Shown here piece by piece: positions 9,249 to 62,361 of a stretch of 64,000 bases of DNA. This stretch comes from a virus. How positions within the stretch are numbered: position 1 is the first letter of the stretch; the number at the start of each line of letters is the position of its first letter. The stretch is from IMG/VR virus record IMGVR_UViG_3300035670_000110, positions 1 to 64,000 of that record. One strand, given 5' to 3'. A model generated the notes under the pieces. The model was not told the DNA's origin. It searched no databases and saw only the letters and a program-made list of their open reading frames with translations. The position numbers and the translations under genes are program-made.

Positions 9249-9737
9249 TTAGTAGATATCTGGAAACTCTCCGTCAATAATCCATTCGTTAGTATTTATT
9301 TTTACTAACTCTATGCTGGTCCACTGAGCGGTTAAATAATTTTGGTCTGCAGAATTTAGTATAACTCCTGACTCTTCTATAAATTGTACACTACCTGCAC
9401 CACTTCTTACAACCTTTATTGAAGATCCTATATCTATATTTTCTGTATTATTATTTGGAATAATAATATTAACTGCGGAGGCAGAATTAGCAAGTAATAT
9501 TGAATTCTGATCGCTATTTAAAATCATATATGAAAACGATGAACTAGAGTCTGTTATTGAATCTACTTTTCTTGCATAAGAAAACTCTAAGTTACTTTCA
9601 TTAATTAAGTTTACCCAGGAACCAGAATATGCCATCCTAATAGTATTGTCTACATTATTAAAATATATTTCTCCATCTTCAAACAACTCAGGGTTGTCAG
9701 ATAAATTGACTACTTTTAGGGTGGAAACTAGTCTCAC
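9249..9737 (-). CDS. Putative virion or fibre-associated beta-rich protein
   Basis: The 162-residue product opens with LFEDGEIYFNNVDNTIRMAYSG, a pattern common in phage fibre proteins that list rendered values along a beta scaffold. The remainder is Ser/Asn-rich beta structure (SASAVNIIIPNNNTENIDIG, GSVQFIEESG). It starts with GTG overlapping the preceding stop (GTGA). It lies about 23 kb from the fibre genes, which is unusual for a structural gene. A role as accessory fibre or host-binding protein is inferred from composition only. Confidence 0.45.
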   Translation of the reverse strand: MRLVSTLKVVNLSDNPELFEDGEIYFNNVDNTIRMAYSGSWVNLINESNLEFSYARKVDSITDSSSSFSYMILNSDQNSILLANSASAVNIIIPNNNTENIDIGSSIKVVRSGAGSVQFIEESGVILNSADQNYLTAQWTSIELVKINTNEWIIDGEFPDIY

Positions 9738-10216
9738 AGAAATCTACCGCCCCAGACACCTTTATTAGAATTTACATATCCTGGTGGGATAACTGCTAAC
9801 CTACATTTTCCTTCCGCCTCAATGCTGTAGGAGAGAATCTGGCAGCCCAGTGAGCCATCATCTTTTTGATATACCAAAGAGCAGTTAGAGCATTTGACTC
9901 CAATAGAGGCATCCGAATTTTGAGCGGCAGTCTCATATCCTATCCATATTCCTGTACTCTCATTATCTAGAGGTCCATATTTTTCTGCAATAGAAACTAA
10001 AGAATCATGAAATTCTTTTTCTGGATCTGATAACTGTGAGTAAAGTCCATTATCAACCTTACTAATTTTCTTTGACTGTGATTCAGCGGCGTAGAGCGCC
10101 CTTTGCTGATCTAAGGCTTCTTGCCTAGTTGAATGAGTTCCGCGAACAGTACCATCTGGACCCACTACAGAGTATCCAGACTTACCACGGTAGTTCTGTC
10201 TAATATCGTATGGCAT
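9734..10216 (-). CDS. Head-associated domain protein with Cys cluster and WGGRFL tail
   Basis: This 160-residue protein has three parts. Residues 1-45 (YDIRQNYRGKSGYSVVGPDG ... TRQEALDQQRALYAAE) form a small module known from actinophage head-maturation proteins. Residues about 55-145 hold Cys in the pattern KCSNC ... GCQIL ... GKCRLAV, like the HiPIP-type four-Cys domain found in many phage proteins. The last residues are GVWGGRFL, nearly identical to the LWGGRFL near the C-terminus of this phage's prohead protease. I infer an accessory head protein, perhaps recruited through this tail. Cluster binding is not demonstrated. Confidence 0.6.
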   Translation of the reverse strand: MPYDIRQNYRGKSGYSVVGPDGTVRGTHSTRQEALDQQRALYAAESQSKKISKVDNGLYSQLSDPEKEFHDSLVSIAEKYGPLDNESTGIWIGYETAAQNSDASIGVKCSNCSLVYQKDDGSLGCQILSYSIEAEGKCRLAVIPPGYVNSNKGVWGGRFL

Positions 10217-12171: not shown

Positions 12172-13809
12172 TCAATTTTTTATCATTGCTCTACCTATTT
12201 CAGGGAACCATAGACAATAAAGGTTTGATTCCTTGTAAGTCTTTATAGCATCTTCTGGTGTTTCTACCAACGGTTCTCCTGCGAGATTAAAACTAGTATT
12301 TAATAAAACGCCAACTCCGGTATTTTTTTTAAATTCTAATAATAATTGAAACAATGGCTCTGATTCGTCTTCTATAATTTGAATCCTACAGGTGTTGTCA
12401 ACATGCAGAACTCCAGGTATTTCTTTTGCAATATCTTTTGCGTCAGCATTTATTGTCATAAATTTATATCCGTCATTATTTTTTAAATAAAAGTACTTAT
12501 GAGCATCTTCTTCTAGACAAACTGATGCAAAAGGTCTATACCATTCTCTTTTCTTAATAATATTAATTAAATTTTTTGCATTGAGATTTCTTGGGTCAAA
12601 GAGTATAGACCTATGACCCAAGGCTCGGGGGCCAGCCTCCGATAGTTTATAATATATACAGACGGATTTTTGATCTAATAAAATATCTACTATGTTTGCA
12701 ATTTCTATTTTTTGGGTATCATCTTTCAACAAATCATAATTTTTTCCGTGAAAAAATAAATTATTAATTTTATTTATAGTTTTATCTTTAGTTAATTTTC
12801 TATAAGCCAGCATAGCAGAGCCAATGCTGTTTCCACTATCGTCTGCAATTGGCTCAAAATAAAAATTTATTTCTGGAAAATTTTTAATAAACCTAGAGTT
12901 AGCAACGACATTTAATCCATATCCTCCAGTTATGCATATATTCTTACAATTAGTTTTTTCCACTGCCTTTTTTATTAAAAATTCCATTGCATCTTCTGTT
13001 TGTTTTTGTACATGAAAAGCATAATCTGCATATAATTTGTAGTTTTTTTCATTAATATTTTTTGTTTTAACAAAATAATAGTTTGAATATATTGGTATTG
13101 AATTATTTTTTTCTATTTCAACGTCAATAAAATAATTTGAGTTTATTATGTTTGAATTATTTAAAATAAAATTTGGTATATTTGATTTTTCCCCGTAGGC
13201 AGAAAGGCCCATGGTTTTTCCATTTTCTAATGGACTTTCTCCGATCAATCCCGTTGCACTACAGTACATTCCGACTAAACCAATTCCAGCAAAAGAATCT
13301 ACTTCACAGTCTGGATATTTATTTAAAATTAATGGTTTAGACAAAGAGTTAAATATTTTTTTTTCAAAATTTTTATACACTGGTATGAAGTTATCTGGAT
13401 AAGATGCATAGAATATAGATTCTAATTCTTGTAGTCCATCTACATATGATCCAGCACCATCTGCAACAATAATGGCTGCATCCTCAAATCCACTATTATA
13501 AAAAGCCAAACTTGCGTGCTGCAAATGATGTTGGCTTGAAGCATCAATATTATTTTTTACATTAACATATTTTCCAACAATATGCACCCAGTCCTGAAAA
13601 TACTGATCATACGATCCTTCTGCGGCAGGGGCAAATATAAAAGATTCTACTTCTTTTAGATCTTCAACACCTTTTTGTAAAGAAAGTATTGGCCTATAGT
13701 CTCTTTTTTTCTTGCTTATTCTTTCCTCTTTTAGGAATACTTCAATATTGCCATCATTAATTATACATATGCTAGAGTCATGGCAGGGAGATATTCCTAA
13801 AAATCTCAT
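12172..13809 (-). CDS. NodU/CmcH-family O-carbamoyltransferase
   Basis: The 545-residue product opens with MRFLGISPCHDSSICII and contains the metal-binding SQHHLQHASLAFYNSGF, VADGAGS, ITGGYGLNVVANS, AGPRALGHRSIL and GVGVLLNTSFNLAGEPLVETP. These are hallmarks of the two-domain NodU/TobZ carbamoyltransferases, which use carbamoyl phosphate and ATP to carbamoylate a hydroxyl, usually on a sugar. The N-terminal Kae1-like domain and C-terminal YrdC-like part both look intact. The acceptor may be a surface glycan made with the sugar cassette or a modified base or nucleoside; no hydroxymethylase was found to favour the latter. Its ATG overlaps the SpeD stop (TAATG). Confidence 0.9.
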   Translation of the reverse strand: MRFLGISPCHDSSICIINDGNIEVFLKEERISKKKRDYRPILSLQKGVEDLKEVESFIFAPAAEGSYDQYFQDWVHIVGKYVNVKNNIDASSQHHLQHASLAFYNSGFEDAAIIVADGAGSYVDGLQELESIFYASYPDNFIPVYKNFEKKIFNSLSKPLILNKYPDCEVDSFAGIGLVGMYCSATGLIGESPLENGKTMGLSAYGEKSNIPNFILNNSNIINSNYFIDVEIEKNNSIPIYSNYYFVKTKNINEKNYKLYADYAFHVQKQTEDAMEFLIKKAVEKTNCKNICITGGYGLNVVANSRFIKNFPEINFYFEPIADDSGNSIGSAMLAYRKLTKDKTINKINNLFFHGKNYDLLKDDTQKIEIANIVDILLDQKSVCIYYKLSEAGPRALGHRSILFDPRNLNAKNLINIIKKREWYRPFASVCLEEDAHKYFYLKNNDGYKFMTINADAKDIAKEIPGVLHVDNTCRIQIIEDESEPLFQLLLEFKKNTGVGVLLNTSFNLAGEPLVETPEDAIKTYKESNLYCLWFPEIGRAMIKN

Positions 13810-14204
13810 TACTTAACCATTAATTTTGTTGATGTAACCTTAAATCCGTGTGCTCTTTCAATCACCATGTACTGATATGTTAAAAGACCCATTTTTTCTT
13901 TCAATTCTTTAATAACCAATTCAGCGTCTAACGTTGAACAGGTATATAAATCAAATTGGAGCAGTGCCGGATCTTGCTCATCCCAGATATGAAAAGCAAT
14001 GTGAGAGGTTTCAATCATCACCGCTCCGGTGATCCCTCTGTTTCCAGGAGCATCCACATATGATGCAAATGGACCCTGCACTATCTTCATTCCAATTTTT
14101 TCAACTAGGCTAGACAGCCAGGATATTGCATCTTCTGGGCTTTTGATTGGATTTTCTACATACCCGTTAAGAATAATTTGATTATGAAGAGGCATCTCAA
14201 ACAC
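13809..14204 (-). CDS. SpeD-like pyruvoyl-dependent decarboxylase
   Basis: The 131-residue protein matches bacterial S-adenosylmethionine decarboxylase proenzymes in length and motifs: AVMIETSHIAFHIWDE holds the self-cleavage Ser67 and the processing His72, and DLYTCST holds the catalytic Cys89. The residue before the cleavage Ser is Thr rather than the usual Glu, which is unusual. AdoMet decarboxylase supplies aminopropyl groups for spermidine. Some SpeD homologues have changed to arginine or ornithine decarboxylation, so the substrate is open. No spermidine synthase gene is present in the window. The start is GTG at 14204 or ATG at 14195. Confidence 0.82.
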   Translation of the reverse strand: MFEMPLHNQIILNGYVENPIKSPEDAISWLSSLVEKIGMKIVQGPFASYVDAPGNRGITGAVMIETSHIAFHIWDEQDPALLQFDLYTCSTLDAELVIKELKEKMGLLTYQYMVIERAHGFKVTSTKLMVK

Positions 14205-15046: not shown

Positions 15047-15427
15047 CTATTTACTTAAATCGAAGGGGGAACCTTCCCAAACCTTCTTCATTCTATTTAC
15101 TATTGCTCTAGACCAAGAGTATCCAGCGTCTCCGCCCCAGGCTTCCCACATAATTTTTCCATTAGATGGATATCCTTCTTCACCCGGAGAAAAACCCTTA
15201 CCCTTTTTATCTACTTCATGCCTAGAGAAATATGAATACATTCTCTTAACGGTATCTAGAGAGAGATTTTCTTTATTTGCAAGTTGATTTGCACGAGTCC
15301 AGCCAACAGATGTTCCTGCACCCGTAGCCTTTCCCTCTTCTCTCCATTTTAGTGCTCTTCTTGCCGCTGCTGCCATAGAATCAGTCGGCTTATACGTCTC
15401 TGCCAAGATCGGTAAACTCCCATCCAT
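15047..15427 (-). CDS. Conserved phage protein of the head-maturation accessory type
   Basis: The 126-residue protein contains SMAAAARRALKWREEGK, LSLDTVKRMYSYFSRHEVDK, GEEGYPSNGKIMWEAWGGDAG and WSRAIVNRMKK. This domain is common in phages, often encoded near or fused to head proteins such as prohead protease or portal, and its biochemical role is not settled. Here it stands alone, far from the capsid genes, between RNA segments. Whether it is packaged in the head is unknown. Confidence 0.6.
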   Translation of the reverse strand: MDGSLPILAETYKPTDSMAAAARRALKWREEGKATGAGTSVGWTRANQLANKENLSLDTVKRMYSYFSRHEVDKKGKGFSPGEEGYPSNGKIMWEAWGGDAGYSWSRAIVNRMKKVWEGSPFDLSK

Positions 15428-57085: not shown

Positions 57086-58204
57086 TCAGCCAGTTACGGC
57101 ATTGGCCTTGGCCATTGCAGAGAGTTCTTCGATGTTTAGACCCATTCGGACATAAACGGTGTACTCTACTGTGTCCTTCTTTGGCTTGAACTCACGATGG
57201 ACAGTAACGTCTCTCTGGAAGCCCCAGATTCTGTTCTGTGGGAATGTGAGGTCAACGTAGTGGTCTGGGTATAGTGGAACTTCCATTACGGGAATACCGA
57301 AAATGGAGGTTGTCATACCTGCAGGGCCACCAACGCGGGCGGGGGTGCCACGAAGAATACCGGCAGCGATATCCTCAGGAACACCTCCTGAGCCAATCTG
57401 ACGTAGATCAGTTAGAAGGGTTTGAACGTTCTTTGTGGAAGCATAGAACTTCAACTCTTGACGACGAGCCTTGAACTTACGGGGCAATGCGTTGTAAAGA
57501 GACTCAAAGAAGGCGATTGCTGAACCACTCTTCAGTTGTCCTGAAGTAGTTGCAGCGGTGAAGAATGTGGATGCTGTAGTAAGGGTTGCAGCAGTACCGA
57601 AGTGAGTACCACCAGCAGCGCCGTCAGCGAGTGCAACGAACCCATCGATTGTGTATGGGTAGGTTGTACCAGCGTAGGAAGCAGTTCCCTGAGCAGCCAG
57701 ACCATTGATGGCGATATCTTCAAGATCGTTACCGAATTGACCAGCCATTAGGCGGACAATGTGATCCTCAAGAGCGGAGCCTTCAATGTTATCCTCAAGT
57801 GCCTCAGTTGAGAGTTCGTAGTCCAAGCGGAACTTAGTTGTGACGATTTCAACCTTGGTAAATTGAGCACCACGGTTTGCATAGCCTGTTTCGCCTGCAC
57901 CAGCATCAAAGATGTTCTCACTTGCTTGTGATGCTTTGCGGATCAAACGAGTACCAACCTGAATCTTATCGAATTCAGCGGTGTTGGCTCGCATGATTTG
58001 TCTACGACCGTCGTTGCCTAATACCATCTGATCAAACACATAGTCTAGGAATTGACGGGATTGTTCTGGAAGTAGCACGCCACCATTTTGAGTCAATGGG
58101 TTGCTTGTCAAGTTCTCCATATCACCGCTAGATGATAGGTCGGAGATGATTGCACCTGTACCAACATTTACTGCGGCAGCGGCCTTATTAATTGCGTCAC
58201 TCAT
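57086..58204 (-). CDS. Major capsid protein, HK97 fold
   Basis: The 372-residue protein has an N-terminal arm (LTSNPLTQNGGVLLPEQSRQ), the E-loop and spine helix region (VTTKFRLDYELSTEALEDNI, LEDIAINGLA) and a C-terminal VYVRMGLNIEELSAMAKAN. This is the layout of HK97-fold capsid proteins in actinophages. There is no long delta domain at the N-terminus, which agrees with a separate scaffold supplied from the protease gene. Codon use is noticeably more GC-rich and regular than in neighbours, fitting high expression. Confidence 0.9.
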   Translation of the reverse strand: MSDAINKAAAAVNVGTGAIISDLSSSGDMENLTSNPLTQNGGVLLPEQSRQFLDYVFDQMVLGNDGRRQIMRANTAEFDKIQVGTRLIRKASQASENIFDAGAGETGYANRGAQFTKVEIVTTKFRLDYELSTEALEDNIEGSALEDHIVRLMAGQFGNDLEDIAINGLAAQGTASYAGTTYPYTIDGFVALADGAAGGTHFGTAATLTTASTFFTAATTSGQLKSGSAIAFFESLYNALPRKFKARRQELKFYASTKNVQTLLTDLRQIGSGGVPEDIAAGILRGTPARVGGPAGMTTSIFGIPVMEVPLYPDHYVDLTFPQNRIWGFQRDVTVHREFKPKKDTVEYTVYVRMGLNIEELSAMAKANAVTG

Positions 58205-58232: not shown

Positions 58233-58772
58233 TTAGTTAAATAGATCTGCGGAACTGAGGAAGCGTCCGCCCCATAATGATTTCTTCATTACGGGTTGCT
58301 CTGGGATACTATTTTCTAGTTCACCAGACTTCTTAATTGCTGTCTCTTCTTCTACAGATTCAACTCTGCTTGCAATTTCTGTAGCAGCGTTATTGAGATC
58401 AGCCAAACTCTTAGTTACCTCTTCGTATTTTGCTTGAAGTTGCCCAACTTTTTCATCGACAGCCTTTGCCAACTCAAGAACAGCGCTTGTAATTTTATCA
58501 AATGACTCTGTGCTTGACTCAACTGACTTTGTTAGGGCCTCTTCCACAAATGACTTAACTTCGCCTAAAGCCTTTTCCATGTCAAAAACTTCTGAGGAAG
58601 TGTCTTCTGATTCGGCTTCTCCAGCCTCAACAACATCAGATTTAGCCATTGCTAGTGCCTCATTAACAACGTCCTCTATAGTTTCTTCTACTTCAAACTC
58701 AACCTCTTCTGAAGTTTCGTCTACAGCCTGGGCGGTGTCAAGTTCTTCATGGCTTGTTTCGTTGTCAGCCAT
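58233..58772 (-). CDS. Nested scaffold protein from internal in-frame start
   Basis: Within the protease gene, an ATG at 58772 is preceded by a perfect AAGGAGGTG with a 7-base spacer, one of the best ribosome sites in the window. In-frame translation gives 179 residues (MADNETSHEELDTAQAVDE ...), very acidic and then coiled-coil (LGEVKSFVEEALTKSVESS, VGQLQAKYEEVTKSLADL), ending with the WGGRFL tail. This matches the scaffold made from within the protease gene in lambda (Nu3 inside C). Separate production is inferred from the ribosome site. Confidence 0.8.
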   Translation of the reverse strand: MADNETSHEELDTAQAVDETSEEVEFEVEETIEDVVNEALAMAKSDVVEAGEAESEDTSSEVFDMEKALGEVKSFVEEALTKSVESSTESFDKITSAVLELAKAVDEKVGQLQAKYEEVTKSLADLNNAATEIASRVESVEEETAIKKSGELENSIPEQPVMKKSLWGGRFLSSADLFN

Positions 58773-60437
58773 TTCAACACCTCCTTCGTTTTTTTGTAAA
58801 GTCTCTAAGGACTTTTTTGTTGACAAGGGATTTTCCTTTGGCAACAAGTCTGTATCGTAAGAAGTTCTTTTGAACTTTCCTGTTTTTAGCGCGTGCAAAA
58901 ATCCTTTAACTCTGGCCTCAGCCCATTCATTTTCTGAAGAAGAATTATTTTTTGAAGATACTGGATTATTTCTGTAGGACTCTATTCCGCGATTAAAAAC
59001 CTTTAGTAATGTTTCAAAATCGGTTCTCTTAGAATTAACGTTACCATATTTTTCATTATGTTGAGAAACTAGATTTTCTAAATTCTTTTTAATGTTTTCT
59101 GGAATAACTTTATTAACACTAATAACCTTTAATTTAACAAGTTCTTCTATGCTTTTATAAACAAAATTTTGTGTGGAAAGAAATTTATTTCCAAACTCTT
59201 TATACAGTCTTAATTCGGCAATGTTATCTGAAATAACCTCTACACGGCCCTTATTAATTTTATTGTCTTCTCTATAAGCAACAAAAGATCCTACCTCTAT
59301 TTCTGTAGGATCAGACTTATACATTCTTTTCTTCTTTCCATATGCTTTTTTAGGAGACATTGTGGCAGAAGCGGATACAGCACCTGGAAGCCCTTGTTCA
59401 GCATTTCTAGCAGGAGTATTTTCACTTGTGACTGTTTCTTTCTCAATATCTTCTGCTTTGTCTAAGGAGTCTATTGCTCTTAAAGTACTCATTTTATGCC
59501 CCACTCTAGTATCTGTTGCCTCCCAGCCCTCTGATCCTTTTCGATAGACTCTAATTAATACTGCTGGGTCGCCATCTTCTGCATTAACTGTAAAGTCTGA
59601 ATCAGGAACATCGATGCTGCCACTTCTGACCACTCTTTCTACTTTCCCGCGTGCAGTGCCACCAGAAGAATTCCAGGAAACAAATTGTCCTACGCGAACT
59701 GAATCTGCTTTTGCTAAAAAGCCGTCCACTATTTTTCCTATTTCTTGATTTTTGTTAATGTCTGTTGATTCTACCCATCCTATTTCATTCATATTTGTTG
59801 AGCAAACTGGGCATTGGAAGGAATCTGATTTTTCAGTTATTGCGATTTTATCTATTGGACACCAAAAAACATTCTCTGTTGTAAACTCTGTGGCGATACC
59901 GCTGGTCACTATTTGATCATCGACTTTTTGAATGGAAAAAATATTAGCAAATTGGTTTGCAGGAGAATCAACTAGGGATAACTCCATTAACTCGTATTCT
60001 TTTACTATTCTTACAGAATTATCATCTTCGTCGTCCATTTTATTTTCATAGTCAACAATTCTTCCACCAATAGAAAATCCTGTTAAAGTTCCATCTAAAA
60101 CCATTTGCCAAATGTTTTCTGCGCCTTTTGAAATATAGGCGTCTACAAAAATACCGTTATATGTTTTACCAGTTTCTTTATCAAAGAAGGAGTTTTCTCT
60201 AAACGAAACAACTTTTCCGGCAGGAATGGGCTGATGCATTAATCTTACATTTCCACGAAAATTCTCAAAAGCCTTTCTTGATGCTTCTGATAGCAAGACA
60301 TCACCTTGCCTGTCAACATTATCTAATGTAGCAAACCCGCTAACGATTCTTCTTTCTTCATCCACCTTAGCGATGGGCATTGTTAATCTTAGGCTGTCGC
60401 CATCTAAATCAAAGTGTGCTTTATTCATATCAACCAT
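58233..60437 (-). CDS. Prohead protease with scaffold-like C-terminal region
   Basis: The 734-residue product starts with an S78-type maturation protease: IVSGFATLDNVDRQGDVL, catalytic His68 (VRLMHQP), Ser122 (GFSIGGR) and EYELMELSLVDSPAN. Residues 193-212 hold three Cys (FWCP ... QCPVC), a possible zinc site. Two small beta-domains follow (VGQFVSWNSSGGTARGKV, VGSFVAYRED). The last 180 residues are acidic and coiled-coil, like a scaffold, ending LWGGRFLSSADLFN. The protein would direct capsid assembly and then cleave scaffold and itself. It is longer than usual for the family (about 200-250 residues) because of these additions. Confidence 0.9.
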   Translation of the reverse strand: MVDMNKAHFDLDGDSLRLTMPIAKVDEERRIVSGFATLDNVDRQGDVLLSEASRKAFENFRGNVRLMHQPIPAGKVVSFRENSFFDKETGKTYNGIFVDAYISKGAENIWQMVLDGTLTGFSIGGRIVDYENKMDDEDDNSVRIVKEYELMELSLVDSPANQFANIFSIQKVDDQIVTSGIATEFTTENVFWCPIDKIAITEKSDSFQCPVCSTNMNEIGWVESTDINKNQEIGKIVDGFLAKADSVRVGQFVSWNSSGGTARGKVERVVRSGSIDVPDSDFTVNAEDGDPAVLIRVYRKGSEGWEATDTRVGHKMSTLRAIDSLDKAEDIEKETVTSENTPARNAEQGLPGAVSASATMSPKKAYGKKKRMYKSDPTEIEVGSFVAYREDNKINKGRVEVISDNIAELRLYKEFGNKFLSTQNFVYKSIEELVKLKVISVNKVIPENIKKNLENLVSQHNEKYGNVNSKRTDFETLLKVFNRGIESYRNNPVSSKNNSSSENEWAEARVKGFLHALKTGKFKRTSYDTDLLPKENPLSTKKSLETLQKNEGGVEMADNETSHEELDTAQAVDETSEEVEFEVEETIEDVVNEALAMAKSDVVEAGEAESEDTSSEVFDMEKALGEVKSFVEEALTKSVESSTESFDKITSAVLELAKAVDEKVGQLQAKYEEVTKSLADLNNAATEIASRVESVEEETAIKKSGELENSIPEQPVMKKSLWGGRFLSSADLFN

Positions 60438-60467: not shown

Positions 60468-62069
60468 TTAATTTTGCTGTCTTCCGTCGCCCTGTGTTGC
60501 CCTTGGCATTTCCGCTGAATCTGATGCATTAGAAGATCTTTCTTGATCTCTTACCCTATTTCTAGTTGCTTGTGCTGTTTGCTCTGATGCTTGTGGGCCA
60601 GTTAATATTACAGGATTATCCCCATCAGGTAGGCTGGACTTTCCAAGTCTTTCTCTTACCTCATTGGGAACAATAACTCTCATTCTTAAATATCTTTCAT
60701 CAATTTTTGATTGAGTTTCTTCGTCAGTCAGGGTTAGTTCATTAAATTCAAATTTAAATATGTCTGTTTTTTCAGCAATAATTTTATTAATTTTCTTTTC
60801 AAGCGCGTCCTGTGCTGGACGGCAGACTTGTTCTTTAAATGTTCTGTCTGACTCTCTTGCCGCAGCCAATCCAATTCCTTCAGTAGATCCTACTTTAGAT
60901 GCTGGAACTCTATGGGCCATTAAGATTTCTTCTTTATTCATTTTTTTATAGTTATTAAATGATGAATCTTGAATGTTTGTTTCAATAGGCTCCATCTTCA
61001 TTTCCACTTTAGTTTCTGGGGTATCTCCTGGAATAGGAATGATGGCTGTTCTATGAGACTGACCTCTTAGATTTCCCTGAAAAAATTCAAACAGTCTTTC
61101 TTCTGCCTGACGACTCATCTTTGCGCCCTTTAGCCAGAAAATATATCTTGGAACTGCCTTGTTCTCAAAGTACTCAAGATTAAATCTGGACGCAAACTCA
61201 TTTCCTGCCATTGCATTTTTAGCAGCAACAATTGCGGGAAGTCCGTAATAAGTGTTAGTGGGCGTGTAATTCTTAATATGAATTATTTCATTTGGCCTTG
61301 GGTCAGTTGTTATCGGGTTCTTTTCTTTTCCTTCAAAGTTTCTAAAGAACACGGCCTTGCCGTTGACGATTTGTACAAAGCCGTCACGCAATCTACGCAC
61401 TCGCATTGTAGAGGCGGGAATATGACCAATGTAACCGATTTCGCCATTAACTTTCCGACCGATTTCAATATACCCATTACCCGTTGCCTCCGCATCTATA
61501 TAAGATTTAATTAGTGTCATAGTAAATGTATCATCGTCATTACGGGATTCAAGCCATTCTATTGCCTGCTCTCTTTGTCGGGCAATCTTTCTTCTGGCTC
61601 TTGCCAATTGGTCTGGGTCATTTATCTCTTCAAGTTTTTGTATTATTTCCAATTTAGGCAATAAATCGTATCCTAGACCAACTATGTTTGCAACCTTTGC
61701 ATTAATTGCAGAATAGTTTGGAGCGGAAAGTTCATATATTTTTGCTAAAGCCCCTAAATTATATTGAGGCTCTACAACGTCAAATATTCCATACCCGTAC
61801 TTATCTGGAATAATTTGTTTTGAGGTTGCTTCATCTCCAGCATAAACATTATCGTCTGCTGTAACAATTTCTCCCCCGGCAGTTATAAGCGCTTTGCTTA
61901 ATTTTCTACGAGCAGATCTTTTAAAATTTTGAGACAATCCGTTAAGTTGCAAGATGCTATCTGCATCCTGTTTAAAATCATCTTTCTCTGGTTGCATTGG
62001 ATTGTCTGATGATACAGACTTTCCTATGTGAACGCTATCGATCCAAAGATCTTCTTGTTCGTTTTGCAT
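60468..62069 (-). CDS. Portal protein
   Basis: The 533-residue product has GIFDVVEPQYNLGALAKIYE, WLESRNDDDTFTMTLIKSYI, EIIHIKNYTPTNTYYGLPAI and EILMAHRVPASKVGSTEG, the wing, stem and crown patterns of HK97-type portals (PBSX/XkdE-like phage portals). The C-terminus is Gln/Arg-rich and disordered. I used ATG 62069, with GGAG nine bases upstream, rather than an ATG eight codons earlier. It forms the dodecameric DNA channel and binds terminase. Confidence 0.9.
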   Translation of the reverse strand: MQNEQEDLWIDSVHIGKSVSSDNPMQPEKDDFKQDADSILQLNGLSQNFKRSARRKLSKALITAGGEIVTADDNVYAGDEATSKQIIPDKYGYGIFDVVEPQYNLGALAKIYELSAPNYSAINAKVANIVGLGYDLLPKLEIIQKLEEINDPDQLARARRKIARQREQAIEWLESRNDDDTFTMTLIKSYIDAEATGNGYIEIGRKVNGEIGYIGHIPASTMRVRRLRDGFVQIVNGKAVFFRNFEGKEKNPITTDPRPNEIIHIKNYTPTNTYYGLPAIVAAKNAMAGNEFASRFNLEYFENKAVPRYIFWLKGAKMSRQAEERLFEFFQGNLRGQSHRTAIIPIPGDTPETKVEMKMEPIETNIQDSSFNNYKKMNKEEILMAHRVPASKVGSTEGIGLAAARESDRTFKEQVCRPAQDALEKKINKIIAEKTDIFKFEFNELTLTDEETQSKIDERYLRMRVIVPNEVRERLGKSSLPDGDNPVILTGPQASEQTAQATRNRVRDQERSSNASDSAEMPRATQGDGRQQN

Positions 62070-62361
62070 CTCTCCACGCTCCAGTATCTCCATATGTTAG
62101 GAGTCCATTTTCCATACGATATTTATCCTCTTGGTATTCTTCTTCTGTCACACGACCTATGCCTGGAATAAAAACAGCCTGTCCTTCCGGCTGACCATAA
62201 TGTGCAGCAGCCTTTCTAATTTCAGCCATTTTTTCAATGTCTCCACGCATAGAAGGAATGTTTAAAACATTATCATCGTCATCTTTAAAGATTCCACCCT
62301 CTGGAAGTAGCCAAACATATACTCCATAGTTAGACGGATCTTGTACTATTTGTAATCCCAT
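62035..62361 (-). CDS. Conserved small protein upstream of portal
   Basis: The 108-residue protein opens MGLQIVQDPSNYGVYVWLLP and has GDIEKMAEIRKAAAHYG and GIGRVTEEEYQEDKYRMENG. Proteins with this pattern occur just upstream of portal genes in several actinophages. The function is unknown; a head-vertex or portal assembly role is possible. It overlaps portal by 35 bases. Confidence 0.6.
   Translation of the reverse strand: MGLQIVQDPSNYGVYVWLLPEGGIFKDDDDNVLNIPSMRGDIEKMAEIRKAAAHYGQPEGQAVFIPGIGRVTEEEYQEDKYRMENGLLTYGDTGAWRDAKRTRRSLDR

Follow-up and report, generated by a model that had tools for sequence, protein, structure and literature searches.

A C-terminal WGGRF-type motif shared by the prohead protease/scaffold and distantly encoded head modules of aquatic actinophages, a likely capsid-targeting signal

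Background

The stretch of DNA analysed here (64,000 nucleotides, hereafter the window) is part of an uncultured 88.6-kb IMG/VR virus and raises the question of why a small protein and the prohead protease/scaffold, encoded about 48.5 kb apart, carry the same tail. The first-pass annotation had pointed out that a 160-residue protein ends with GVWGGRFL and that the protease/scaffold has WGGRFL near its end, and it read the common tail as a docking signal that would make the small protein an accessory head protein. Both tails were seen (the small gene lies on the minus strand), and the docking reading gained support from the conservation of the tail and from fusions of the modules to proteases. 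Judging from these sequence comparisons, we consider it likely that WGGRFL and its variants are a C-terminal capsid-targeting or docking motif of the scaffold, which would recruit accessory proteins into the prohead.

When the protease was compared with those of classified phages, the closest relatives were Streptomyces phages (Stanwilliamsviridae). Because of these relatives and of a WhiB-family regulator encoded in the window, an actinobacterial host is likely. A full-text literature search for WGGRF returned no paper.

Results and discussion

The protease/scaffold and the 160-residue protein

The protease/scaffold (58233-60437, minus strand; 734 aa) is a fusion of an S78 prohead protease and a scaffold with an internal Tudor (PF11160) module. 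Its S78 domain (PF04586) scored 31.5 bits against a cut-off of 21, the whole matched phrog_9427 with an E-value of 1e-119, and capsid and portal genes adjoin it. The order of transcription is portal (60468-62093, minus strand), protease/scaffold and capsid (57086-58204, minus strand; phrog_1623), with the protease directly before the capsid gene. The major capsid protein is the candidate docking partner and the portal protein the alternative one. The protease/scaffold ends with MKKSLWGGRFLSSADLFN, of which KKSLWGGRFLSSADLFN is the tail; the codons of WGGRFL occupy 58257-58274 (minus strand).

The 160-residue protein (9734-10216, minus strand) consists of an N-terminal module beginning with MPYDI, a four-cysteine module and the tail. 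The N-terminal module (MPYDIRQNYRGKSGYSVVGPDG; 10079-10216, minus strand) matched phrog_80 (E-value 0.039, profile 1-51), showed 44 % identity in a sequence search (E-value 2e-3) and is found again at the N-terminus of the prohead protease that Pontimonas phage phiPsal1 encodes. The cysteine module (residues 58-148; 9773-10045, minus strand) has 39 % identity to the 'capsid maturation protease' of DSL-LC01. Thus, the annotated presence of modules from head-maturation proteins was borne out by profile matches and by the phiPsal1 protease. C109, C112, C125 and C138 were invariant in the 14 sequences compared and follow a CxxC...C...C pattern with HiPIP-like spacing. However, the HiPIP family (PF01355) was matched with 15.8 bits, under its cut-off of 22, so metal binding by the four cysteines is only suggested. 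The AlphaFold model was unusable (pLDDT 54). A PDB sequence search with the profile of this protein gave weak matches, mainly to designed beta-trefoils, with no convincing stretch, and two other queries gave no match. The protein ends with NSNKGVWGGRFL, and the codons of its WGGRFL occupy 9737-9754 (minus strand). Near the tailed genes, adjacent genes at 12172-13809 and 13809-14204 (minus strand) were judged by eye to encode a carbamoyltransferase-like and an S-adenosylmethionine decarboxylase-like protein.

In a six-frame scan of the window, WGGR was found only in these two proteins. As 18 other 6-mers are also common to different genes of the window, the bare sharing of a 6-mer was rejected as a weak argument. 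When the scaffold core was compared with the rest of the window proteome by a substitution-weighted score, the best match was the C-terminus of the 160-residue protein (score 39), a value that was reached in none of 1000 shuffled proteomes (maximum 36). The codons of the two tails are unlike (GGC GGT AGA TTT CTG vs GGC GGA CGC TTC CTC), so the tail is not a recent DNA copy. They also vary synonymously among homologues, and together these differences point to selection on the peptide.

A look-alike in the WhiB regulator

The WhiB-family regulator (PF02467; 7984-8265, minus strand) contains an internal GVWGGIFL, which closely resembles the GVWGGRFL of the 160-residue protein and is conserved in related contigs. 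This 93-residue protein was considered as a third tail carrier and rejected, since the stretch is the known GVWGG turn of WhiB. The tail could in turn be read as a WhiB-like element that binds a host sigma factor, with the 160-residue protein as a regulator. We regard this as very improbable in spite of the resemblance and of the four conserved cysteines in the 160-residue protein. The motif is internal in WhiB, the first G and the V are not conserved in the 160-residue family (N, S or D, then I, L or F), and the tail is also found on proteins lacking the cysteines and on the scaffold. The 160-residue protein had no match to PF02467, whereas its WhiB neighbour did.

Conservation of the tail among homologues

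Homologues of the 160-residue protein were found at 26 IMG/VR loci, several of which are identical copies; one (L017) is cut by the contig end, and three (L024-L026) are different fusions with only the N-terminal module in common. Every unsplit homologue with a readable C-terminus carries W[GS]G[RK]F, either as WGG[RK]F or, in L023, as WSGKF. The linkers have 6, 9 or 17 residues and 1-8 residues follow the motif, so it was kept while its surroundings changed. In L021 and L022, probably the same phage sampled twice, the gene is split by a stop and a start that overlap, and both products have a tail (the first ends with NKGFWGGLFTNNKAGK, the second with MNKSFWGGKIIKK). If the tail is an address label that every protein needs for itself, a copy on each half is to be expected. 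The distance from cargo gene to scaffold gene was 40-63 kb.

On the scaffold side, 18 of 18 close relatives end with KS[LV]WGGRFLSSA[DE]. Among 80 broader relatives, KSxWGG[RS]FL was present in all 73 that were readable, as WGGRFL in 57 and WGGSFL in 16, where the scripted count of 57 covers R/K/H tails only and the 16 were taken from the printed list of the script. When seven proteases (38-97 % identical to the first) were aligned, WGGRFL was invariant and the scaffold region hypervariable. Streptomyces phage StarPlatinum has WGGHFL at the same position, and Streptomyces phage Blueeyedbeauty has WGGRFL. No second tailed protein was seen in StarPlatinum, and this suggests a motif that belongs primarily to the scaffold and was taken up later by cargo; the use of the tail by cargo is not universal in the wider phage group. 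About 15-20 residues before the tail, near residues 700-712 of the protease/scaffold (58233-60437, minus strand), there is a second conserved block, VEx[DE]TAxxKSG[DE], which the Streptomyces phages also have and which is possibly a maturation cleavage site.

The 126-residue protein and other carriers

The 126-residue protein (15047-15427, minus strand), which the first-pass annotation had counted as a dispersed module of the same kind, fits that description: it matched phrog_2859 (E-value 2e-38) and has a variant tail, WEGSPF within KKVWEGSPFDLSK (15062-15079, minus strand), that had been missed. AlphaFold predicted its helical core with good confidence (pLDDT 86) and the tail with low confidence. 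The WEGSPF tail is probably unstructured, consistent with a flexible docking peptide. In a PDB fold search the model had no significant match, and among modelled proteins its fold matched prohead proteases, XkdF proteins and portals. A 498-residue phage protein bearing the name 'DNA-binding protein Dps' (BFVD entry A0A6J7WVS4) contains the fold as well, a hint of a further head-cargo fusion.

About 70 distinct relatives of the 126-residue protein end with W-x-G-[ST]-[PA]-F or near variants. Two phrog_2859 proteins (L147:15138-15569, minus strand; L173:729-1157, plus strand) have tandem double tails (KIWEGSAFSL...GKSLWDGSAFRFTKH). A Tudor/DUF5872 family ends with sequences like KSIWDGSFDPKGFNK (KSIWDGSF or KSVWDGSMF type); 35 of its 43 distinct ORFs fit the regular expression, and most of those that do not fit differ little, having L in place of F. 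One contig (G007) encodes three small tailed proteins in addition to the scaffold. The tail of the 126-residue type has an extra residue (S-P-F vs R-F). Since WGGSF, WSGKF and WDGSF are stepwise intermediates from WGGRF to WEGSPF, we infer that the two types are one motif; this identity rests on graded intermediates and not on an alignment score. The tail was kept in all readable homologues of the 160-residue protein, with minor variants, and in all readable relatives of the protease/scaffold, and it persists as a variant in the 126-residue family, so the absence from homologues that the first-pass annotation had named as a refutation was not observed.

The motif is C-terminal in all carriers. 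The one additional internal copy is in a 356-residue protein (L152:18541-19608, minus strand) with MPYDI, DUF5872, Tudor-like and phrog_2859 modules, where one tail lies between modules (DKDIWDGSAFGK) and a second at the end. This protein looks like a fusion of once separate tailed proteins. The internal copy and the variable trailing residues indicate that a free carboxylate is not needed, which argues against the tail being a C-terminal degron or another host-factor tag with no tie to head assembly. A short motif near the C-terminus and the low model confidence expected of a flexible tail would suit such a tag, but carriers of the tail other than the scaffold and head-associated modules are almost absent, and we give this explanation very little credence.

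Enrichment at C-termini

The pattern W-x-[GS]-[RKSTH]-[PAS]?-F was searched in about 1,014 predicted genes from nine contigs that hold head genes. Within the final 30 residues it was observed 23 times against 1.16 expected from the rate in protein bodies; as the pattern was composed after the tails were seen, the enrichment is strong as a description but does not amount to a blind test. All 23 hits belong to the protease/scaffold or to modules of the 160-residue, 126-residue and Tudor/DUF5872 types. A ranking by substitution score, made without the pattern, placed the 160-residue tail first in three contigs (G000, G002 and G003). In contigs lacking a relative of that protein the ranking did not pick out tails of the 126-residue type, whose divergence from the scaffold core is greater.

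A capsid gene was present in 6 of 19 contigs; these six are also the ones that encode the protease, which has a tail in each of them. In contigs with relatives of the 126-residue protein the protease was mostly not found, because they are fragments without head genes; they are not counter-examples. A scan for further tailed families gave no convincing new one: 11 of 232 were classed as 'other', including at least one phrog_2859 protein, in a collection that is skewed by the way in which the loci were retrieved.

A functionless similarity, due to chance or inheritance, would agree with the 18 other shared 6-mers. However, the motif was conserved through indels, a gene split and synonymous changes and is enriched 23 to 1.2, so that the comparative sequence data already contradict this explanation, the least probable of those considered.

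Fusions of the same modules in isolate phages

In isolate phages the modules occur joined to head proteins. Roseobacter phage CRP-811 encodes phrog_2859, Tudor, S78 and capsid in one polypeptide, and Synechococcus phage S-CBS1 has a similar fusion without a Tudor match. In Limnohabitans phage DC31, phrog_2859 is fused to an XkdF-type protease, and in halovirus HRTV-4 it is fused to the portal. A single protein of Pontimonas phage phiPsal1 combines the MPYDI module and a Cys-rich stretch with phrog_2859 and S78. No tail was found at the end of the fusion proteins of CRP-811, S-CBS1, DC31 and phiPsal1, and a free-standing phrog_2859 protein in the head operon of Vibrio phage 1.123.O is also without a tail. 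These fusions tie the tailed modules to the prohead protease, and they are the basis on which the carriers are taken as putative head proteins.

Proposed role of the motif

We propose that the motif, with the consensus K-x-[hydrophobic]-W-x-G-[RKS]-(x)-F, originated at the scaffold end of the protein that combines prohead protease and scaffold. During prohead assembly the scaffold tail would probably contact the capsid shell from inside or, with lower likelihood, the portal. The scaffold of phage D3 contacts the capsid P-domain by its C-terminal part (PMC12749128), and the scaffold C-terminus of herpesviruses binds the major capsid protein (PMC12474303); since both touch the shell by a terminal segment, docking to the capsid interior is favoured here. 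In the aquatic actinophage lineage, modules that are fused to the protease elsewhere would have become separate genes 40-63 kb away, each with its own copy of the motif, and would be co-recruited to the same docking site as accessory internal proteins. As the cargo genes lie at a distance from the head operon, late co-expression is assumed. What was observed directly is that the motif exists and is conserved, that it is placed almost exclusively at the C-termini of the protease and of head modules, and that it is duplicated where the gene is split; from this, packaging, the partner (capsid or portal) and the later fate of the proteins (retained, ejected or cleaved) are deduced.

The tail might dock instead to the scaffold/protease itself, as a substrate, an inhibitor or a means of self-association, so that the accessory proteins are carried in with the protease or processed through it. 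The motif is on the protease/scaffold polypeptide in every case, and the accessory modules are elsewhere fused to that protein. However, a cleavage site or inhibitor need not be near the C-terminus in every carrier, and the end of the scaffold is where known scaffolds meet the shell (PMC12749128). We therefore rate this alternative as unlikely, though above the other alternatives discussed here. A broader version of the capsid-docking proposal is that the MPYDI, four-cysteine, Tudor, DUF5872 and phrog_2859 modules are a head-interior toolkit, loaded by fusion to the protease or by the docking peptide of the scaffold and then ejected into the host with the DNA; we put this forward tentatively and would not expect all of it to hold.

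Comparison with known targeting signals

The closest known systems are the capsid-targeting sequences of phages T4 and P1, the encapsulin targeting peptides and the herpesvirus scaffold tail. In T4, a peptide of about 10 residues on IPII and IPIII directs internal proteins and foreign fusions into the prohead core (PMC9958956). As here, a short terminal peptide is common to several separately encoded proteins, the actinophage carriers being putative head proteins on account of the module fusions. The T4 sequence is N-terminal and absent from other core proteins (PMC9958956), whereas the actinophage motif is C-terminal and common to the protease/scaffold. In P1, a short terminal signal sends the accessory protein DarB into the head (PMC9024508). 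That signal is N-terminal, within 30 residues and without a consensus among Dar proteins (PMC9024508), whereas the actinophage consensus recurs across unrelated modules. Neither the DarB signal nor that of T4 is described as common to a protease/scaffold.

In the case of encapsulins, which have the HK97 fold, a short C-terminal peptide on unrelated cargo binds the shell from inside (PMC8346489). These are cellular compartments without a scaffold or protease bearing the peptide, and their consensus, SDGSLGIGSLKRS (PMC8346489), is unrelated to WGGRF, the actinophage tails being KSxWGGRF- or WxGSPF-like. The herpesvirus UL26 protease-scaffold and UL26.5 scaffold have a C-terminal end in common, by which they bind the major capsid protein (PMC12474303). 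The second herpesvirus protein is again the scaffold, produced from an overlapping gene, whereas the actinophage proteins sharing the tail are unrelated accessory modules encoded far off.

Conclusions

If the proposed role is true, the motif would provide a sequence rule predicting which anonymous small genes of aquatic actinophages encode proteins that ride inside the virion, and the role of widespread head modules (phrog_2859, DUF5872 and Tudor) would become testable. It would also serve as a small C-terminal tag with which proteins could be loaded into phage heads, and would be a natural example of genes separating while a short docking motif takes the place of covalent fusion.
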